Origin: Pontibacillus chungwhensis
Lineage (GTDB): Bacteria > Bacillota > Bacilli > Bacillales > BH030062
Direction: 5' to 3'
DNA: 64,000 nt
Assembly: GCF_030166655.1 (NCBI RefSeq)
Contig: NZ_CP126446.1
Coordinates: forward strand, 1,612,001-1,676,000
Under the pieces are notes generated by a model, which was not told the origin of the DNA, did not search any database, and saw only the letters and a program-made list of their open reading frames with translations. Positions 23,714-33,075 of the stretch are shown here, in pieces (within the stretch, counting starts at the first letter, position 1; every line of letters begins with the position of its first letter). A program made the translations under genes and the position numbers.

Positions 23714-25006
23714 TTATGCAGCTGCTTTTTTAAATCTTGGGAATCCAACTAGAATGGCTACAATTCCTGATACCGCAATTAAGATCGGATAGAAAGAGTA
23801 AGGAAGCAGTTCGATAGGCGATAGCTCTCCAATCTGCGCTGCAGTTAACAGCTGAGCTCCATAAGGAATTAAGCCTTGAACGGTACAAGAGAATATATCA
23901 AGCAAGCTTGCCGATTTTCTTGAGTCGATCTCGTATTCATCTGCTACATTTTTAGCTAGTTGACCGGTTGTAATAATGGCGATGGTATTATTTGCTGTTG
24001 CAAGGTTTGTAGTCGCGACTAGCCCTGCAATACTTCCTTCGGCACCTTTTTTAGATCGAATGCCTTTGGTTAATGTGTGAAGGAGGAACTGGATTCCGCC
24101 GTTTTGGTTAATCATGGCGACTATTCCACCAATGATAATTGTAAGAAAGATTAATTCAGACATCGAGTTAATCCCAGATGTAATATTGGTCATGAAGGCA
24201 TCAAGTGAATAGTCGCCGCTTATTCCTCCAATGACACCAGATAAAAGGATCCCTCCAATTAATACAGCCATAACATTAAGTCCGGCTAATGCACCAATGA
24301 GTACACCAATATACGGGATGACCTTCAATCCATTAAAGCTGTCTGGATTCACAGAAGATTCGCCACCAGATGTGAGTACAATTAACAGAATGATGGTAAG
24401 AATCGCGGCTGGGAGAACGATAAAGAAATTCGTTTTAAATTTATCTTTCATCTCTGTCTTTTGCGTGCGAACAGCTGCAATGGTTGTGTCTGAAATGATG
24501 GATAGGTTGTCTCCAAACATCGCCCCTCCAACAACAGCTGCTAATGATAACGCAGCGGAGAATTCCGTTTCAGCGCTAATTCCAACAGCAATGGGAGCAA
24601 GAGCACTAATGGTCCCGACTGAAGTTCCCATAGAGAGGGAAATAAAGCCCGCGATGATAAAGACTCCTACAATGATTAAATTCTCAGGTAAATAGGTTAA
24701 AGCCAAGTTTACAGTGGAGTCAACGGCTCCTATGCTATTGGCAACAGAAGAGAACGCGCCTGCTAGTATAAAGATAAAGACCATAATCATAATGTCAGGA
24801 TGGCCTGCCCCTTTGGCAAACTGCTCAACTTTTTCAAACGTAGGTTTTTTACGATTTTGCAGGATCGCTACAATAGCTGCAAGTAAAGCCGGAATCAAGA
24901 TAGAAATATAATAGAAATCACCTGTAATGATACCTGAACCTACAAAGATGACTAAGAAGATCCCTAAGGGTAACAGGGCGAGTGGATTTCCTTTGTTGGT
25001 ATTCAT
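23714..25006 (-). CDS. metT: NhaC-family carrier under SAM-riboswitch control, candidate methionine transporter
   Basis: A 430-aa membrane protein with about 11 helices and the NhaC-family signature GGAMFGDNLSIISDTT near residue 165. NhaC proteins are Na+/H+ or Na+/solute antiporters. The gene follows a complete SAM-I riboswitch with terminator, which would shut it off when SAM is plentiful. In Gram-positive bacteria S-box-controlled NhaC-type carriers have been proposed as methionine transporters (MetT). The family is secure; the methionine substrate is inferred from regulation. Confidence 0.82.
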   Translation of the reverse strand: MNTNKGNPLALLPLGIFLVIFVGSGIITGDFYYISILIPALLAAIVAILQNRKKPTFEKVEQFAKGAGHPDIMIMVFIFILAGAFSSVANSIGAVDSTVNLALTYLPENLIIVGVFIIAGFISLSMGTSVGTISALAPIAVGISAETEFSAALSLAAVVGGAMFGDNLSIISDTTIAAVRTQKTEMKDKFKTNFFIVLPAAILTIILLIVLTSGGESSVNPDSFNGLKVIPYIGVLIGALAGLNVMAVLIGGILLSGVIGGISGDYSLDAFMTNITSGINSMSELIFLTIIIGGIVAMINQNGGIQFLLHTLTKGIRSKKGAEGSIAGLVATTNLATANNTIAIITTGQLAKNVADEYEIDSRKSASLLDIFSCTVQGLIPYGAQLLTAAQIGELSPIELLPYSFYPILIAVSGIVAILVGFPRFKKAAA

Positions 25007-25069: not shown

Positions 25070-25229
25070 AAAAAATGCCCCTTCTTAATCAGAAGAGGGC
25101 AATCTATACGAGCTCCTCTTCTCATCTATCAAGTGTTAACCTTGCTGGATTTGGCACAGCACTCATATGAAATGAGCCCGCTGCCGAGACATCGTAGGGC
25201 CAGTCCCTCCGCCTCTCGTGATAAGAAGG
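25070..25229 (-). ncRNA. SAM-I (S-box) riboswitch with terminator
   Basis: Minus strand, 5' to 3': CTTATCACGAGAGGCGGAGG (P1/P2 start), GACTGGCCCTACGATG, TCTCGGCAGC, then GGGCTCATTTC...GTGCTGTGCC and the closing GCAAG. This is the S-box consensus (aptamer about 25139-25229). The expression platform is GCCCTCTTCT/AAGAAGGGGC (25077-25100) followed by six U. It precedes the NhaC-family gene starting at 25006. Confidence 0.93.
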
Positions 25230-25391: not shown

Positions 25392-25739
25392 TTAAATAAT
25401 ATTTTGAATGTCTTGAGAATCTGTAACCATTAATAGGACTTTTCCCTCATCTAAGTGTTCTTCGTATGTTTCAGCTTCGTGTTGAGAAAATCCGAGGTCT
25501 TGTAATTTATTACGTAGCTCGTCACCTTTTTTGTTGAAAAGGTTGCCGACAATCTCTCCCATATTCATTTCGTTTATTCCAACGGTATTTGCGTCGGTAT
25601 TGTCTGCGAGGCGTTCAGTGCGGTCATCATCGTGAGTCATTAAATAGATATGATCCTTTGTAACACCATTATCCGCTAATTTCTGGACGTCATTTTGAAG
25701 CTTTTCGTCATTCTGGTACTCTCGTACAAAAGGTTTCAT
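25392..25739 (-). CDS. General stress protein 17M-like (YflT family)
   Basis: A 115-aa protein of the YflT/GSP17M family: KPFVREYQNDEKLQNDVQKL at the N-terminus, HIYLMTHDDDRTERLAD, and a C-terminal EHLDEGKVLLMV. It is hydrophilic and cytosolic, of unknown biochemical role. AAGGAGG lies 8 nt upstream, and a good sigma-B promoter is present at 25777-25801, consistent with the family's known sigma-B control in Bacillus. Confidence 0.85.
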   Translation of the reverse strand: MKPFVREYQNDEKLQNDVQKLADNGVTKDHIYLMTHDDDRTERLADNTDANTVGINEMNMGEIVGNLFNKKGDELRNKLQDLGFSQHEAETYEEHLDEGKVLLMVTDSQDIQNII

Positions 25740-25801: not shown

Positions 25802-25952
25802 ATTTGGATGGTTTTTGTAAGAGTTATGTGAAAAATATGACTTATATGAAAACAAATTGTAATATAACCGTAACTTTATGACGAACAATCTTTTGTTAGA
25901 ATGGTCCTAGTAGAAAAAACAGACGATACTAGAAAAAGATGGAGTGGGGAAT

Positions 25953-26855
25953 ATGTTGAAAAAGATCATTGCTTGTGGAATGGCCGTTATGTTCACATTC
26001 AGTAGTGCATCTGTAGTAGGAGCTGCAACCAATTCGGACAAGTTGTTAAGCGTAGCTAGAACACATATGGGGGTACCATACGTCTTTGGAGGACAGAGCG
26101 CAAGCGGATTTGACTGCTCTGGGTATACTCAGTATGTATATAATAAAGTAGGCATTTCAATTCCACGTACGACAGGAAGTCAGGCTACTGTAGGGGAAGC
26201 TGTAAGTAAAAGCAACTTAAAACCTGGTGATTTAATATTTTTCAAAAATACTTACAAGAGAGGAATCTCTCATGTGGGAATTTATGTAGGAAATAATAAC
26301 TTCATTAGTGCGACTTCAAGTAAAGGGGTGGACGTCGTATCATTGAATAATTCTTATTGGGGTCCGAAGTATGCAACAGCGCGCCGAGTTGAAAACTTCG
26401 ATGTTAATGCATTATTTGATGACTTAGATGAGAATAATGAAGCTTATACAGCAATCAAAGAATTGGTGGAGAATGAAATCATTAATGGCTACCGTGATGG
26501 AACGTTCAAGCCTGACCAACCTGTTACAAGAGGACAAGCAGCTGCATTAATTAACAATATCATTGGTTTTGAGGCAAGTAATCAAGAGCCGTTTTCTGAT
26601 GTGAGTGCTGGCCATACCTTTGCTAGCCAAATTGCGGCAATGAAAGAACTTGGCATTATTCACGGTTTTAACAATGGACTGTTCAAACCGGATGAATTCA
26701 TTACACATGGGCAAATGGCAATTATGATTAAGAATGCATTAGAAGTTACAGGTGGAAACCCAGACGAAATGAAACAAGATGGGTACGATGAGCGAGCTTC
26801 TCGTGCGGAATTTGCAACAGCCTTACACGACACTCTTTTTCAATATAATAAGTAA
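25953..26855 (+). CDS. Secreted NlpC/P60 endopeptidase with two SLH domains
   Basis: A 300-aa exported peptidoglycan endopeptidase. The signal peptide ends about residue 26 (VVGAATN). The NlpC/P60 domain has catalytic Cys in GFDCSGYTQYVY and His in ISHVGIYVGNN. Two SLH segments follow: IKELVENEIINGYRDGTFKP and MKELGIIHGFNNGLFKPDEF. ATG at 25953 is chosen because GGAG lies 8 nt upstream; GTG at 25944 overlaps the site. It would cleave stem-peptide bonds while held to the wall polymer, alongside the other SLH proteins of the window. Confidence 0.88.
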   Translation: MLKKIIACGMAVMFTFSSASVVGAATNSDKLLSVARTHMGVPYVFGGQSASGFDCSGYTQYVYNKVGISIPRTTGSQATVGEAVSKSNLKPGDLIFFKNTYKRGISHVGIYVGNNNFISATSSKGVDVVSLNNSYWGPKYATARRVENFDVNALFDDLDENNEAYTAIKELVENEIINGYRDGTFKPDQPVTRGQAAALINNIIGFEASNQEPFSDVSAGHTFASQIAAMKELGIIHGFNNGLFKPDEFITHGQMAIMIKNALEVTGGNPDEMKQDGYDERASRAEFATALHDTLFQYNK

Positions 26856-26919: not shown

Positions 26920-27328
26920 AGTTCAGTATTTTATCTCTATTTGTTATTTACCCAGGCTGTAAATAAGTAAAACATAAGAGTTTTAAGGACGTTTGAGAGG
27001 GTAGGGTCCAATGGACTAATGAATGTGCGCTCATTTAGGTCAATGGGTGTGGTTTGTTAAGTTAATGTGTGAAAATTGGTCTTAATTTCCTGCTACTTAA
27101 GAATCGAAAATTATCAGAATATTGATATATTTCTAATTTTTATTTATGATGGGTCTAACTTACATCCTATACTCATTTATATGCTTGGGAAAATAAAGGG
27201 ACAAAAGGGTGATTTTATCAGTCTTTTCTTCTAGGTTTTCCCAAAAATAAAGAGAGGTGTGAGAGGAGTATGAGAGAGATAGGAAGCATATGCTCTAGTA
27301 AAGAGTAAGTGCTTCTTCAGAGAGAGAG
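26920..27328. other. Long leader/intergenic region upstream of the XRE-TPR regulator
   Basis: No gene seen. It contains the inverted repeat TTGGGAAAA (27185-27193) with TTTTCCCAA (27236-27244), each arm near AAAATAAAG, and an AGCATATGCT palindrome at 27285-27294. A 12-codon frame near 27270 was not accepted as a gene. Confidence 0.45.
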
Positions 27329-28621
27329 TTGATCTTTACATTGAAAGGTTCTGAAGTTGGGAAAACGATAAAGTTACATCGGCTGAACCAAAACCGCACG
27401 CTTGAGGAAACAGCTCAGGGAATTTGTTCAATCTCCTATTTAAGTAAGATTGAGAACGGGCTGACCAAATCAAGTGATGAAATTGTTCAATTACTCTTTA
27501 ATCGATTGAATATCCCCGTAGAAACGCTTGAAGAAGAACTAGATGAAGGGGTCCTTGAACAAGAACTGCAAGAATGGTACACCGTTATTTTACAAAGGGA
27601 AACGGACCAGGCGACTGAGCAATATGTGAAATTAAAGCAAAAATTAAGCACACTCTCCACTCCGAGTACCTTGTCATTATTTAAACTCTATGAAGTTCGC
27701 TATCATCTCCATATGCGCCACCTTTCAGAAGTGCCGGTTCTCATGGACCGATTAGAAAGGATGCAAGATTTATTTGAAGAGAAACATCATTACTATTATA
27801 TGAAGTTTTATGGTCTCTACCACCATGTTCAAGAAAGGTATCAGGAAGCCCAGCAATATTACAAGAAAGCGTTGGCAATCGGATATCAGAACACATTAAG
27901 TGATAGTGAAAGAGCTGATTTGTATTTCGTGACCGCGATCAATGAGTCCTCTTTGCAAAATGTGACACTGGCTCTTCATTATGCAAGGTTGGCACTAAAT
28001 TTATATACAGTTCAATTTGATTTTAAACGTAGTGGAGATTGTCAAATTTTACTTGGGATTTGTTATAAGCGTACTCGCCAATTTGAGCAAGCGGATCAGT
28101 GCTTTCAGCTAGCTGTCAAAGCTGCTGGTAACCTGCAAAGTTCCTATTTAAAAGGAATCGCCTATCATAATTTAGGTTCCTTGCACGCTGCTCTTTCTCA
28201 TCATGAGAAAGCAATTGATTATTTTCAGAAGAGCTTGATCTATAAGGAGAATAAGAATAGTAAAGGGAAATTAACGAGTATTGCTTCTATTGTGGAGTCT
28301 CTTTACGCCTTAGGTGATCAAGGAAGAGCATTAGAATGGATTGATCGAGGCTTAATGATGATCAATCAACAAGAGGATTTTCAAATCCTTCGATATTATT
28401 TTCAGGTGTATAAATACCGGGTCTTAGAGGATCTCATTAGTCTGGAGCATTATTTAAGGGAAACAGTCATTCCTTATTTTATCGATAATGAAAACCAATT
28501 CTATATCGGACTCTACTGTGAACTGCTTGCTGAGTGCTTGCAGAAACACAAGAGGTATAAGGATGCTTGTTATTACTTGACTCTGGCTAATGAATCACAT
28601 AAAAAATTATCAATTACCTAA
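27329..28621 (+). CDS. RRNPP-type XRE-TPR transcription regulator (PlcR/NprR-like)
   Basis: A 430-aa protein. An N-terminal XRE helix-turn-helix (VGKTIKLHRLNQNRTLEETA; SISYLSKIENGLTKSS) covers residues 10-65. A long array of TPR-like helices follows, e.g. ERYQEAQQYYKKALAIGYQ, RQFEQADQCFQLAVKAAG and AYHNLGSLHAALSHHEKAID. This is the architecture of peptide-pheromone receptors of the Rap/NprR/PlcR/PrgX group. Start is uncertain: TTG at 27329 has only a weak GA-rich site, and a second TTG lies at about 27341. A secreted 41-aa pro-peptide gene follows after 16 nt, the hallmark of the group. Confidence 0.85.
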   Translation: MIFTLKGSEVGKTIKLHRLNQNRTLEETAQGICSISYLSKIENGLTKSSDEIVQLLFNRLNIPVETLEEELDEGVLEQELQEWYTVILQRETDQATEQYVKLKQKLSTLSTPSTLSLFKLYEVRYHLHMRHLSEVPVLMDRLERMQDLFEEKHHYYYMKFYGLYHHVQERYQEAQQYYKKALAIGYQNTLSDSERADLYFVTAINESSLQNVTLALHYARLALNLYTVQFDFKRSGDCQILLGICYKRTRQFEQADQCFQLAVKAAGNLQSSYLKGIAYHNLGSLHAALSHHEKAIDYFQKSLIYKENKNSKGKLTSIASIVESLYALGDQGRALEWIDRGLMMINQQEDFQILRYYFQVYKYRVLEDLISLEHYLRETVIPYFIDNENQFYIGLYCELLAECLQKHKRYKDACYYLTLANESHKKLSIT

Positions 28622-28637
28622 GGGAGAGTGGGAAAGT

Positions 28638-28763
28638 ATGAAAAAATGGATGATTTCAGCTTTAGCTATTGGGGCGATCGCTTTTTCAGCAATAGGTGGG
28701 TTTACTGCGCAGGCATTAGACGAAGAGCCAGAACCTTGCACAATTGAATTAACAGACATTTAA
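28638..28763 (+). CDS. Secreted 41-aa pro-peptide, candidate pheromone for the XRE-TPR regulator
   Basis: The peptide begins MKKWMISALAIGAIAFSAIG, a Lys-start signal sequence. A likely signal-peptidase site is AQA before LDEE, and it ends DEEPEPCTIELTDI. Size, signal peptide and position 16 nt after an XRE-TPR gene match Phr, NprX and PapR precursors. The mature signal would be a C-terminal or internal 5-8-mer, perhaps from CTIELTDI. GGGAGAG lies 9 nt upstream. A strong terminator follows. Homology was not used; the call rests on context. Confidence 0.75.
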   Translation: MKKWMISALAIGAIAFSAIGGFTAQALDEEPEPCTIELTDI

Positions 28764-28768
28764 GTAGT

Positions 28769-28803
28769 AAAGCCCCGGACTCTGGTTGAGTTCGGGGCTT
28801 TTT
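28769..28803 (+). terminator. Terminator of the RRNPP cassette
   Basis: AAGCCCCG-ACTC pairs with GAGT-CGGGGCTT, then a U-run. Confidence 0.9.
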
Positions 28804-30225: not shown

Positions 30226-30402
30226 GGGCCGTTATATTTTATGAGTGCTCGGGCTTGTTCGGGGACAACTCGCTTTCCGAGGGGGAGCTGGGAAGACTCC
30301 TCGTTCGCATTCGCTCTCTGTGGGGTCTCCCCTAGGCTCTTTCCCCCGTAGGAGTCTCGCAGTCCCCGAACAAGCCCTGACTACATAGGGGGTGAACGGC
30401 CT
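30226..30402 (-). repeat. Interspersed palindromic element, copy C (177 bp, reverse orientation)
   Basis: Outer arms GGCCGTT (30227-30233) with AACGGCC (30395-30401). Inner arms GGGCTTGTTCGGGGAC (30251-30266) with GTCCCCGAACAAGCCC (30362-30377), 16 bp perfect. It contains AACTCGCTTTCC and GTAGGAGTCTCGC, reverse complements of the core ends of copy A. The inner arm sequence differs from copy A yet is perfectly paired. Confidence 0.87.
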
Positions 30403-30439
30403 TGAGGCACGAATTGTGTGAGGTGACCTCTCCGCATAA

Positions 30440-30690
30440 TGCATGTTGCCGTTCATCCAAATATGGCAAAGGTGGGCTTGGAAACTGCTAAACTCCCGTG
30501 GGCAGAAGAGCCAGTTCAGTTCCAGCGTGGAGGACCTAGCGCGATAAGTCATCTTTTTTCCAAAGGCTAAACGCCTTTTCCAAAAAGCTGTCTTATCCGT
30601 ACGGTCCTAGGCACCAAGCTTGCACATTTCAATCTAGGAGAGCGAGTTGACCCTGGGCAAGCCCAAGCACTCATCAATCGTATCGGCCCT
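30440..30690 (+). repeat. Diverged copy D of the interspersed element with a large central dyad
   Basis: The right end (GAGCGAGTTG, CAAGCCCAAGCACTCATCAAT, CGGCCC) matches the right end of copy A. Inner arm remnants are GGGCTTG (30474-30480) with CAAGCCC (30658-30664). The middle carries a stepped hairpin 30531-30608: AGGACC/GGTCCT, GATAAG/CTTATC, CTTTTT/AAAAAG, AAAGGC/GCCTTT. No gene. Confidence 0.6.
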
Positions 30691-30774: not shown

Positions 30775-31926
30775 TTATTGTGCTACTGCAAAAGTAGTAG
30801 TAGCTGCATTTACTGCTTCCTGTACGTTAATGAGTCCATTCCCGTAATAGAAAGCATCGCCTAAAGGCGTTGTGGTACTATTTAGTAAGCTGCGCACTTC
30901 TTGGTTAGTAAGAGAGCTGTCCTCAGCTAAAATGAGTGCTGCAGCACCGGCTACATGCGGGGACGCCATTGACGTTCCGTTATAAGAGCCGTAAGTATTG
31001 CCTGGTAGTGTACTGTAAATATTAGCTCCTGGTGCCATTACTTCTAATTCTTCACCAACGGAAGAAAAAGAGGCACGGTTCAAGCTTTCATCTACTGCTC
31101 CAACAGCAACAACAGATGCGTATTTAGCTGGATATCCGATGGTATTCTTTTTTCCTTTAGATCCTTCATTTCCAGCCGCGGCTATTAACAAAACACCTTG
31201 TTGGTAAGCTTGATCCATTGCTTGTTCTAATGTTGTTGAGCCACGGCTTCCGCCTAAACTCATATTTACAACGTCAATGTTGTTGTCGACGGCCCATTCA
31301 ATCCCTTTTGCGATTCCGCTGTAAGAACCACTGCCGCTGCTGTTTAATACCTTAACAGCATAAAGTTCAGCTGATGGGGCTACCCCGATGACACCAAGGG
31401 AATTGTTGACACCTGCAATTGTGCCAGCTACGTGTGTACCGTGACCGTTTCCATCATTAAATGGGTCCGGTTCACCATCTACGAAACTTGCGCCACCTGC
31501 TACTTGTAAATCTTCATGACTAGCGCTGATTCCGCTGTCTAATACTGCTACTTTAATTCCGCTACCAGAATTCCCGCTTGCTTGAACATCGTCAGCATTG
31601 ATTGCGGGAATGCCCCACGGGGTTGTCTGCCCGTAAGCTTGTACGTTAGCATCTTCTTCAATATAAGCAACATTTGGATTCTTCTTAAGAGCTTCTACAG
31701 CTTTAGGGGGGAGTTTTGCCTGAACAACATTCATATACTTGAATTGATGCTTCACTTTTCCGCCAACCTTATGAATGGTAGATACTTCTTTGTGATCGAC
31801 CCCAGCCTTAAACCCAATTAAATAGTCTTGGGGTTTCTCTGACGGCTGAGCCGAAATTTTGCTTGGTCCTATGGATAAAGATAAGACGAACATAAAGCTA
31901 AGTAGTGCAATGACCAATCGTTTCAA
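30775..31926 (-). CDS. aprE: Secreted subtilisin-family serine protease
   Basis: A 383-aa preproprotein. The signal peptide is residues 1-26 (ends KISAQ). The inhibitor_I9 propeptide runs about 27-110 and includes DYLIGFKAG and [11 protein letters not shown]. Mature S8 subtilisin begins near [15 protein letters not shown]. The catalytic triad is Asp in VAVLDSGI, His in [14 protein letters not shown] and Ser in [16 protein letters not shown], with oxyanion Asn in AAAGNEG. Length matches the aprE family. AAGGAGGG precedes the ATG. In Bacillus such proteases are often controlled by quorum sensing; the RRNPP cassette nearby is suggestive only. Confidence 0.93.
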
Positions 31927-32302
31927 TAGAATCCCTCCTTAAATAGTTGACTCTATTGTATAACGGGTCTAAAAGAATTTCTTTGGGACAATAAAAGATT
32001 GATAGGGAAGGGGAGGGCGTAAAAGGAATCGCTTTTAGAGAAAAATAGGAGAATGGGCACGGGTTTTGAAAGGTTTAAATGAGGATTTGTGCAAATCAAG
32101 CGTGGAAACGATAGAAGAACGGGTGTTTGGGGAAAGGGTTTGGGAAAAGTAGAATAGGAGAGTGGTTTGGATACCATTTACTAGTATACCACAAAATTAT
32201 GAAAATATTGGATAAAAAATGTATTTATCTTCATATGATTACTTGAGTCCTTTGTGATGTTCCCCTATAATAGGAAGTAACAAAAAAAGCATACGTAAGA
32301 AG
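31927..32302. other. Intergenic stretch between subtilisin and TPP riboswitch
   Basis: No gene seen. The first part is purine-rich on the plus strand; promoters for both divergent transcripts must lie here. TACAAT on the minus strand near 31955 could be the subtilisin -10. Confidence 0.35.
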
Positions 32303-32452
32303 ACCACAAGGGGAGCCGCTAGGCTGAGATTGAACGATTCGTTCTGACCCTCTGAACCTGTTAGTTAGTACTAGCGTAGGGATGTGGCTTTAGTGATGGC
32401 GCAATGCAAACGGACTATCCATCTTAAAGCTCTCCCTTGCATTGCTTTTTTT
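32303..32452 (+). ncRNA. TPP (THI-box) riboswitch with terminator
   Basis: The aptamer (32303-32389) shows GGGGAGCCGCTAGGCTGAGA, GACCCTCTGAACCTG and ACTAGCGTAGGGATGTGGC, the THI-box consensus. The expression platform is GCAATGCAA (32401-32409) with TTGCATTGC (32437-32445) and seven U. It lies directly upstream of a ThiT-type transporter. Confidence 0.95.
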
Positions 32453-32484
32453 GTGTGCATTTTTATTTTAGGGAGGCGATTCAG

Positions 32485-33075
32485 ATGAAACATAGTCCGA
32501 TTTTATTTTTAGTAGAGGTAGCGATGTTTGCGGCTCTAGGTGCAGTTTTAAGTTTACCGTTTTTAACTATTCCGTTGTGGGTCCAAGGCGGATCCATTGC
32601 CTTTGCCATGGTTCCTATTTTCTTTATGGCTTATCGATGGGGGTTAAAAGGTGGCGTTACAACAGGACTTTTAGTGGGGATTTTTAATTCATTGATTAAT
32701 CCATTTATAGTCCACCCTGTCCAATATGTGATGGACTATCCTCTTGCTTATGCTGTGGTTGGTATAGCAGGAATCTTTTCTAAGCCAGCGCTTAAAGCTG
32801 TTCGGGATGGTCATGCAAAGTCGTTCACAGTTTATATTGTAATGGGCACATTACTTGGAAGTGCACTTCGGTTTATGAGTCACTTTATAGGTGGGATTGT
32901 GTTCTTCTCTTCCTTTGCGCCAGAAGGCACAGCAGTCTGGTACTATTCCTTAACCTATAATATTGGTTATATGCTGCCATCGTTTATTATTAGTGCAGTC
33001 ATATTGAATATCATTTTATATAAACAGCCGAAGTTGCTCCGTTTTGGCGGGTCCCAAACCGCGAAATCTGTGTAA
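32485..33075 (+). CDS. thiT: Thiamine ECF transporter S-component ThiT
   Basis: A 196-aa membrane protein with six segments of the ThiT/YuaJ family. Substrate-site segments are SLPFLTIPLWVQGGSI and HPVQYVMDYPLAYAVVG; the N-terminal segment MFAALGAVLSL has the AxxxA-type helix that docks the ECF T-component. Start 32485 follows AGGGAGG. It is controlled by the upstream TPP riboswitch, so it is expressed when thiamine pyrophosphate is low. The shared ECF module (EcfAAT) is not in the window. Confidence 0.92.
   Translation: MKHSPILFLVEVAMFAALGAVLSLPFLTIPLWVQGGSIAFAMVPIFFMAYRWGLKGGVTTGLLVGIFNSLINPFIVHPVQYVMDYPLAYAVVGIAGIFSKPALKAVRDGHAKSFTVYIVMGTLLGSALRFMSHFIGGIVFFSSFAPEGTAVWYYSLTYNIGYMLPSFIISAVILNIILYKQPKLLRFGGSQTAKSV

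Follow-up and report, generated by a model that had tools for sequence, protein, structure and literature searches.

A predicted quorum-sensing operon of the RRNPP kind, with an acidic internal peptide as candidate signal, in Pontibacillus chungwhensis

Two adjacent genes of Pontibacillus chungwhensis, one for an HTH-TPR regulator and the other for a short, secreted-looking peptide, can be read with good confidence as a quorum-sensing operon of the RRNPP kind, belonging to the NprR/Rap branch and having an acidic internal peptide as its predicted signal. Both lie in a stretch of 64,000 nucleotides (contig NZ_CP126446.1, positions 1,612,001 to 1,676,000 of the forward strand), which is referred to below as the window and to which all coordinates apply. 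This reading supplies a concrete signal candidate for the halophile genus Pontibacillus, and moves the place to look for the signal from the C-terminus of the peptide to an internal acidic block. Tandem propeptides in related bacteria display this block directly, such that the peptide-pocket specificity of the NprR/Rap branch is open to tests with synthetic peptides and single mutants.

The receptor gene (27329-28621, + strand; 430 aa in the ORF list) has a TTG start codon which, together with the purine-rich stretch before it (27320-27331), is kept in the five orthologues of the upstream alignment. Its product carries an HTH_3 domain at residues 14-66 (31.3 bits against a Pfam cut-off of 23) with several TPR families behind it, and a RapH_N match which, at 19.0 bits, lies below the Pfam cut-off of 27. 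After a gap of 16 nt (28622-28637) comes the gene of a 41-aa pre-peptide, MKKWMISALAIGAIAFSAIGGFTAQALDEEPEPCTIELTDI (28638-28763, +), with a signal sequence at about residues 1-26; this is followed by an intrinsic terminator, a hairpin and T-run identified by folding (28769-28801, +). An earlier note on this DNA had described just such a regulator, gap and short secreted-looking gene, and the ORFs and Pfam domains confirm it. The strong terminator that it placed after the peptide gene is likewise confirmed, since the 53-nt terminator stretch folds at -25.5 kcal/mol (z -5.1), a value equalled by none of 200 shuffles. The AQA cleavage site assigned to the signal sequence stands less firmly, being plausible by eye but not kept in the orthologues. 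Secretion of small ORFs was judged here by a hydrophobicity rule rather than by a signal-peptide predictor. Upstream, the likely receptor promoter (27109-27150, +) comprises a conserved block and a -35-like/-10-like pair. The block, AATTATCAGAATATTGA (27109-27125), is identical in four of the five orthologues and differs by one base in L042, and it is overlapped by the pair, of which the -35-like TTGATA starts at 27122 and the -10-like TATGAT ends at 27150; promoter-like pairs here are no more numerous than shuffling would give (5 against an expected 5.6).

Within the genus, a receptor relative at E <= 1e-5 is present in seven of the eight Pontibacillus genomes searched, G007 having none at this limit. 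Five of the eight, the window genome counted, hold an orthologue of at least 60% identity, and G002 and G006 hold distant relatives only (28 and 26% identity). Among named relatives, the closest are Pontibacillus salipaludis and P. chungwhensis, with receptor identities of 87% and 86%, respectively. The orthologous receptor/peptide pairs, which the earlier note had suggested looking for, prove to be intact in all five cases, the peptide gene lying downstream of the receptor after gaps of 16, 17, 16, 16 and 17 nt. The peptide tails read LDEEPEPCTIELTDI in the window, LDEEPEPTTIELTDI in two orthologues and MDEPPEPTSIELTDI in two. Between the window and L041, amino-acid-changing codons number 13 of 21 in the signal part, 1 of 6 in the core and 2 of 8 in the tail; selection would appear to act on the core and tail, and not on the signal part.

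Beyond the genus, 397 genomes of the order were sampled, and 255 contain a relative of the receptor at 1e-15. From 138 receptor loci, 14 duplicates were dropped to leave 124, which in turn gave 123 receptors, as L002 and L047 fell outside the 1e-10 limit and L052 gave two. Small ORFs were accepted between -60 and +150 nt from the receptor when their N-terminus was basic and hydrophobic and an RBS-like stretch was present. With peptide length first limited to 90 aa, 98 of the 123 receptors and 4 of 95 control ORFs had one; because many of the misses were longer repeat propeptides, the limit was raised to 250 aa, whereupon the counts became 112 of 123 and 5 of 95, the controls being other stop-to-stop frames of at least 250 aa in the same loci, not all of which are real genes. 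Of the five control hits, one (L002) is in fact a distant receptor. The great majority of the small ORFs (100/112) start 8-35 nt after the receptor. Since many of the receptors are near kin, the count was also made over clusters at 60% identity, and 50 of 61 have such an ORF. Regulators with no small gene downstream, which the earlier note had put forward as evidence against its reading, amount to 11 of the 123 related receptors by this filter (L052, L083, L087, L096, L099, L111, L124, L125, L126, L128 and L131) and to none of the five orthologues; the frames below L126 do contain letters resembling the core, in a different reading frame from the signal part. It is from the peptide gene's presence in all five orthologues, and behind 112 of 123 receptors as against 5 of 95 controls, that the pair is assigned to the RRNPP type, nearest to NprR and Rap, and the receptor with secreted pro-peptide originally proposed is to this extent supported. 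In viral contigs, 183 pattern stretches were checked and contained no receptor relative, and among 12 phage records none covered 80% of the query.

The position of the signal within the pre-peptide is indicated by a family motif of eight residues, A-x-[ED]-[ED]-[HFY]-P-[DE]-P, with Pro at 95%. It was trained on 50 chosen tails from which the five orthologues were excluded, although three of the training tails (L043, L044 and L045) are those of distant paralogues from Pontibacillus genomes. Its likelihood is 265.9, against 111.7-125.5 in 10 shuffled families, with 60 restarts for the real family and 12 for the shuffled ones. The best motif position in the window peptide is residues 26-33, ALDEEPEP (28713-28736, +), at 11.5 bits, with 2 of 2000 shuffles as good; this is the proposed signal core. 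The match reaches 8.5 bits in L039 (17/2000 shuffles as good), and is weak in L041 (1.2 bits, 322/2000) and L042 (1.3 bits). Overall, the motif is found at 6 bits or more in 93 of the 112 peptides and falls below 6 bits in 19. The core occurs at least twice in 26 of the 93 motif-bearing propeptides, many of the copies lying 13-16 residues apart, and 11 of the 93 end no more than two residues from the last core copy, four of these 11 being a near-identical SEPDHPKIV group. On the strength of the motif position, the tandem copies and the ends at the core, the mature signal is placed around LDEEPEPC(T); as no orthologue departs from the IELTDI of the tail, part of the tail may also belong to the mature peptide. 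Propeptides L017, L025, L048, L049, L055, L057, L058 and L080 each contain five to nine tandem core copies.

The earlier note had instead taken the signal from the last residues of the peptide, including or flanking a Cys. With the family motif lying at residues 26-33 that derivation is unsupported, and the Cys does not hold up as a feature of the signal, as residue 34 is Cys in the window peptide only and Thr in the other four orthologues, and Cys beyond residue 24 is found in just 2 of the 112 peptides, of which the window peptide is one. The C-terminal peptide with its Cys is in this way outweighed, but it is retained in the form of a rival in which the type of system is the same, the C-terminal (C/T)TIELTDI (residues 34-41, CTIELTDI in the window; 28737-28760, +) acts as the signal and the acidic block is a spacer or a processing recognition site. 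Such an arrangement seems unlikely. The invariance of IELTDI in all five orthologues, through synonymous codon changes, does speak for it, as does a distant paralogue peptide of another Pontibacillus, L046, which ends GIELTS; set against these are the acidic-proline block as a shared and repeated element of the wider family, the 11 of 93 propeptides which end within two residues of it, and the active form of NprX, which is an internal stretch (PMC4147580). With the signal placed in the acidic core, the IELTDI tail stays unexplained, and it may have a processing role or be part of the signal.

Two further peptides in the genus bear on this subject. The paralogue L046 (G004:C32), at 22% identity, has a TTG-started peptide ending DESQPGPRTMGIELTS, with IELT in common with the tail of the window peptide. 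The window genome also encodes a second HTH-TPR protein, L002 (G000:C1:1020556-1024782), about 170 nt downstream of which is a GTG-started, secreted-looking peptide of 43 aa with the tail AGLNDEEVVS; a peptide of the L002 type is conserved in another Pontibacillus (L011, G004:C12). L002 and its peptide may form a second signalling pair, one that lacks the proline core.

As regards the relationships of the receptor, its best sequence match in the PDB is NprR (4gpk, 3.8e-16), followed by Rap proteins, and no PlcR-named chain is among the 28 PDB sequences at 1e-3. In a quick tree of 68 rows, covering 61 of the 123 receptors, the window receptor and its four orthologues group at 100 and the window receptor lies inside a 42-row group (SH-aLRT 96), with NprR 4gpk placed elsewhere alongside L139 and L140 (SH-aLRT 100). 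The likeness to NprR-NprX of the B. cereus group is manifold: an HTH plus TPR receptor, a peptide gene directly downstream, an extracellular protease gene nearby, perhaps a CodY site, and an active peptide that is internal in the tail, as described for NprX (PMC4147580) and as proposed here. B. cereus NprR nevertheless differs from the window receptor in belonging to a separate clade, in having Glu at the position of R248 and in its Spo0F-contact residues, which by alignment the window receptor lacks. The peptides differ as well, the window peptide having DEEPEPCTIELTDI and not a SKPDIVG-type pheromone such as that of B. cereus NprX, in which a Lys precedes the Pro and an Asp follows it; on motif positions 3-8 NprX scores -4.0 bits and the window's DEEPEP 9.7, a difference of 13.7 bits. 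With Rap-Phr the pair shares a TPR receptor, a downstream gene for a small secreted peptide and a backbone-holding Asn (N225 in Rap, N281 here), but Rap has no HTH, whereas HTH_3 of the window receptor is over its cut-off.

The charge of the peptide pocket is a further point of difference. In RapJ, N225 holds the peptide backbone and D192 forms a salt bridge to a basic Phr residue (PMC3601965); the window receptor has R248 in place of this D192 anchor, and the peptides are acidic. By alignment, R248 (codon 28070-28072, +), H280 and N281 (28166-28171, +) and K306 (28244-28246, +) correspond to the RapJ peptide-contact positions D192, Y224, N225 and F250, respectively. Of the 123 receptors, 116 have Asn at the N225 position, 110 have Arg or Lys at that of D192 (Asp in Rap, Glu in B. 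cereus NprR), 98 have His at that of Y224 and 92 have Lys or Arg at that of F250. On the peptide side, Asp or Glu stands at motif positions 3 or 4 in 90 of the 93 motif-bearing peptides, and Lys or Arg in 15. A basic pocket would suit an acidic peptide, with polarity reversed, as a pattern of the whole family. Co-variation of peptide and TPR pocket, raised in the earlier note, was looked for within the family, where the charges do not co-vary: in the three motif-bearing pairs whose receptor has no basic residue where R248 stands, the peptide is acidic too. Of 13 receptors without Arg or Lys at this position, 5 lack the peptide gene, compared with 6 of the 110 that have such a residue (Fisher p 0.002), but in six independent tree pairs, too few to reach 0.05, the residue shows no effect on the presence of the gene. 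The closest NprR relatives found, L139 and L140, have Arg at the R248 position and an E-bearing QYEFHPPF tail, from which it is possible that polarity flipped in both receptor and peptide toward B. cereus NprR-NprX. A tentative extension, on which we would place rather less than even weight, is that these receptors form a large NprR-like lineage with a pheromone code of its own, namely an acidic [DE][DE]xP[DE]P read by a basic R248/H280/K306 pocket, with polarity opposite to that of Rap-Phr and B. cereus NprR. The pattern of Arg or Lys at this pocket position in receptors with acidic peptides was not seen stated in the literature searched. A structure predicted from three sequences has a mean pLDDT of 42.5 and gives no structural support, nor a reliable number of TPRs to set beside the five-TPR fold of PlcR.

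An addition to, rather than a replacement of, the reading as a peptide-responsive operon is a bifunctional switch like that of NprR, in which the apo receptor also blocks Spo0F and sporulation. Residues were compared with NprR numbering anchored on W79, after which 13 other residues named in PMC4970707 gave the right letter. NprR W79 corresponds to W83 and R126 to R130, both kept in all five orthologues, the R126 position being Arg in 35 of the 123 receptors; W83 and the sub-cut-off RapH_N match hint at the three-helix bundle. The four tested Spo0F-contact residues of NprR, D107, Y118, E188 and Y223 (PMC4970707), nonetheless align with T111, E122, R195 and F230, in an alignment that may locally be one residue off, such that none of the four is kept. 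The Spo0F role of NprR is consequently not to be assumed here, and the bifunctional addition is improbable. Less probable still is that the co-transcribed small secreted or membrane peptide is no ligand of the HTH-TPR regulator, being for example a membrane-acting or immunity peptide, since, even though the 41-aa peptide has no Pfam family, no NCBIfam model near its cut-off and no matching pheromone model, its signal part varies freely while core and tail are kept, the core is tandemly repeated in 26 of 93 motif-bearing propeptides of the family, and the nearest solved relatives of its receptor are peptide receptors.

For the two-gene quorum-sensing operon, the mechanism can be envisaged as follows. 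The pre-peptide would be exported through Sec, and extracellular proteases would then free a short acidic peptide around LDEEPEPC(T), as the family motif suggests. Re-import would be by an oligopeptide permease, for which there are candidate binding proteins, the genome having seven SBP_bac_5 proteins as possible importers. Inside the TPR coil of the receptor, by analogy with the RapJ alignment, N281 would hold the peptide backbone and the acidic side chains would lie near R248, H280 and K306. Binding would switch the DNA binding of the HTH and, with it, the control of target genes.

The cassette was described in the earlier note as new. It is a further member, but of a kind already known, relatives in Priestia koreensis FS-1 having apparently been filed as NprR-NprX. 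Two NprR-NprX systems are reported on plasmids of this strain (PMC10075063), and FS-1 plasmid NZ_CP061869.1 has two places resembling the window receptor, which we infer are apparently those two systems. They apparently fall in the wide-sense NprR cluster of RRNPP_detector, with no decisive difference from the present pair; NprR is given as spanning 21 genera (PMC9765709). For Pontibacillus itself, no receptor-pheromone pair of this kind was found in the literature texts searched, and neither PMC10075063 nor PMC5199041 names the genus in its main text; supplementary tables may already include the pair. Putative quorum sensing with comX/comK is reported in Pontibacillus ALD_SL1 (PMC8389477), the available portion of that paper mentioning no NprR, Rap or pheromone for the strain. 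Literature searches found nothing joining HPDPT with quorum, nor NprR with SKPDIVG and Asn.

CodY control of the receptor gene is suggestive only. The block AATTATCAGAATATTGA has two mismatches to the CodY consensus; in the genome it is found once exactly, and at up to two mismatches in 8 places versus 2 for the reversed pattern. Within the window, CodY-like matches are not above chance (5 at up to three mismatches versus 9.75 expected). Upstream of the family's receptors, in counts over related, non-independent loci, a CodY-like box with up to three mismatches lies within 350 nt in 55 of 123 cases versus 11.1 in single-base shuffles, and within 250 nt in 52 of 122 versus 28 of 141 control ORFs. 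For the 250-nt count, Markov resamples give 16.1 of 122, and 3 of 200 permuted palindromes are as good. At up to two mismatches, 10 of 122 receptors and 7 of 141 controls have a box, with no clear difference. The genome has one CodY protein over cut-off, and nprR of B. thuringiensis is CodY-repressed, as described in PMC4147580.

The order of NlpC/P60-SLH gene (25944-26855), receptor, peptide and subtilisin gene (Peptidase_S8, 30775-31926), both flanking genes being Pfam assignments, is kept wherever the orthologue contigs reach, L039 beginning at the receptor and L042 stopping after the peptide gene. The subtilisin, which the earlier note had named as a possible target, is a conserved neighbour of the pair, a status that other surrounding genes share; it is convergent with the operon and its start faces away. 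Neighbouring genes were named by eye, except for the subtilisin, the NlpC/P60-SLH protein and a YcdB-like SLH protein, which were named from Pfam. The adjacent transporter gene is missing near L041. A 115-aa gene (25392-25739) changes place between genomes: the window, L041 and L042 have it upstream of their NlpC/P60-SLH gene, and in L039 and L040 it sits after the peptide gene and before that of the transporter. The stretch at about 30226-30690, flanked by the transporter and subtilisin genes, is GC-richer (0.50-0.56 in 200-base windows) and is a dispersed repeat with 69 matches in its own genome, self included, several of them co-located; its appearance is that of a mobile or MITE-like element, short and non-coding. 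A TPP riboswitch (32299-32399, +) stands upstream of a membrane-protein gene (32437-33075), which is on that account probably a thiamine transporter. Similarly, a SAM riboswitch (25119-25227, -) upstream of an antiporter-like gene (23714-25006, named by eye) suggests methionine-linked transport for the latter.
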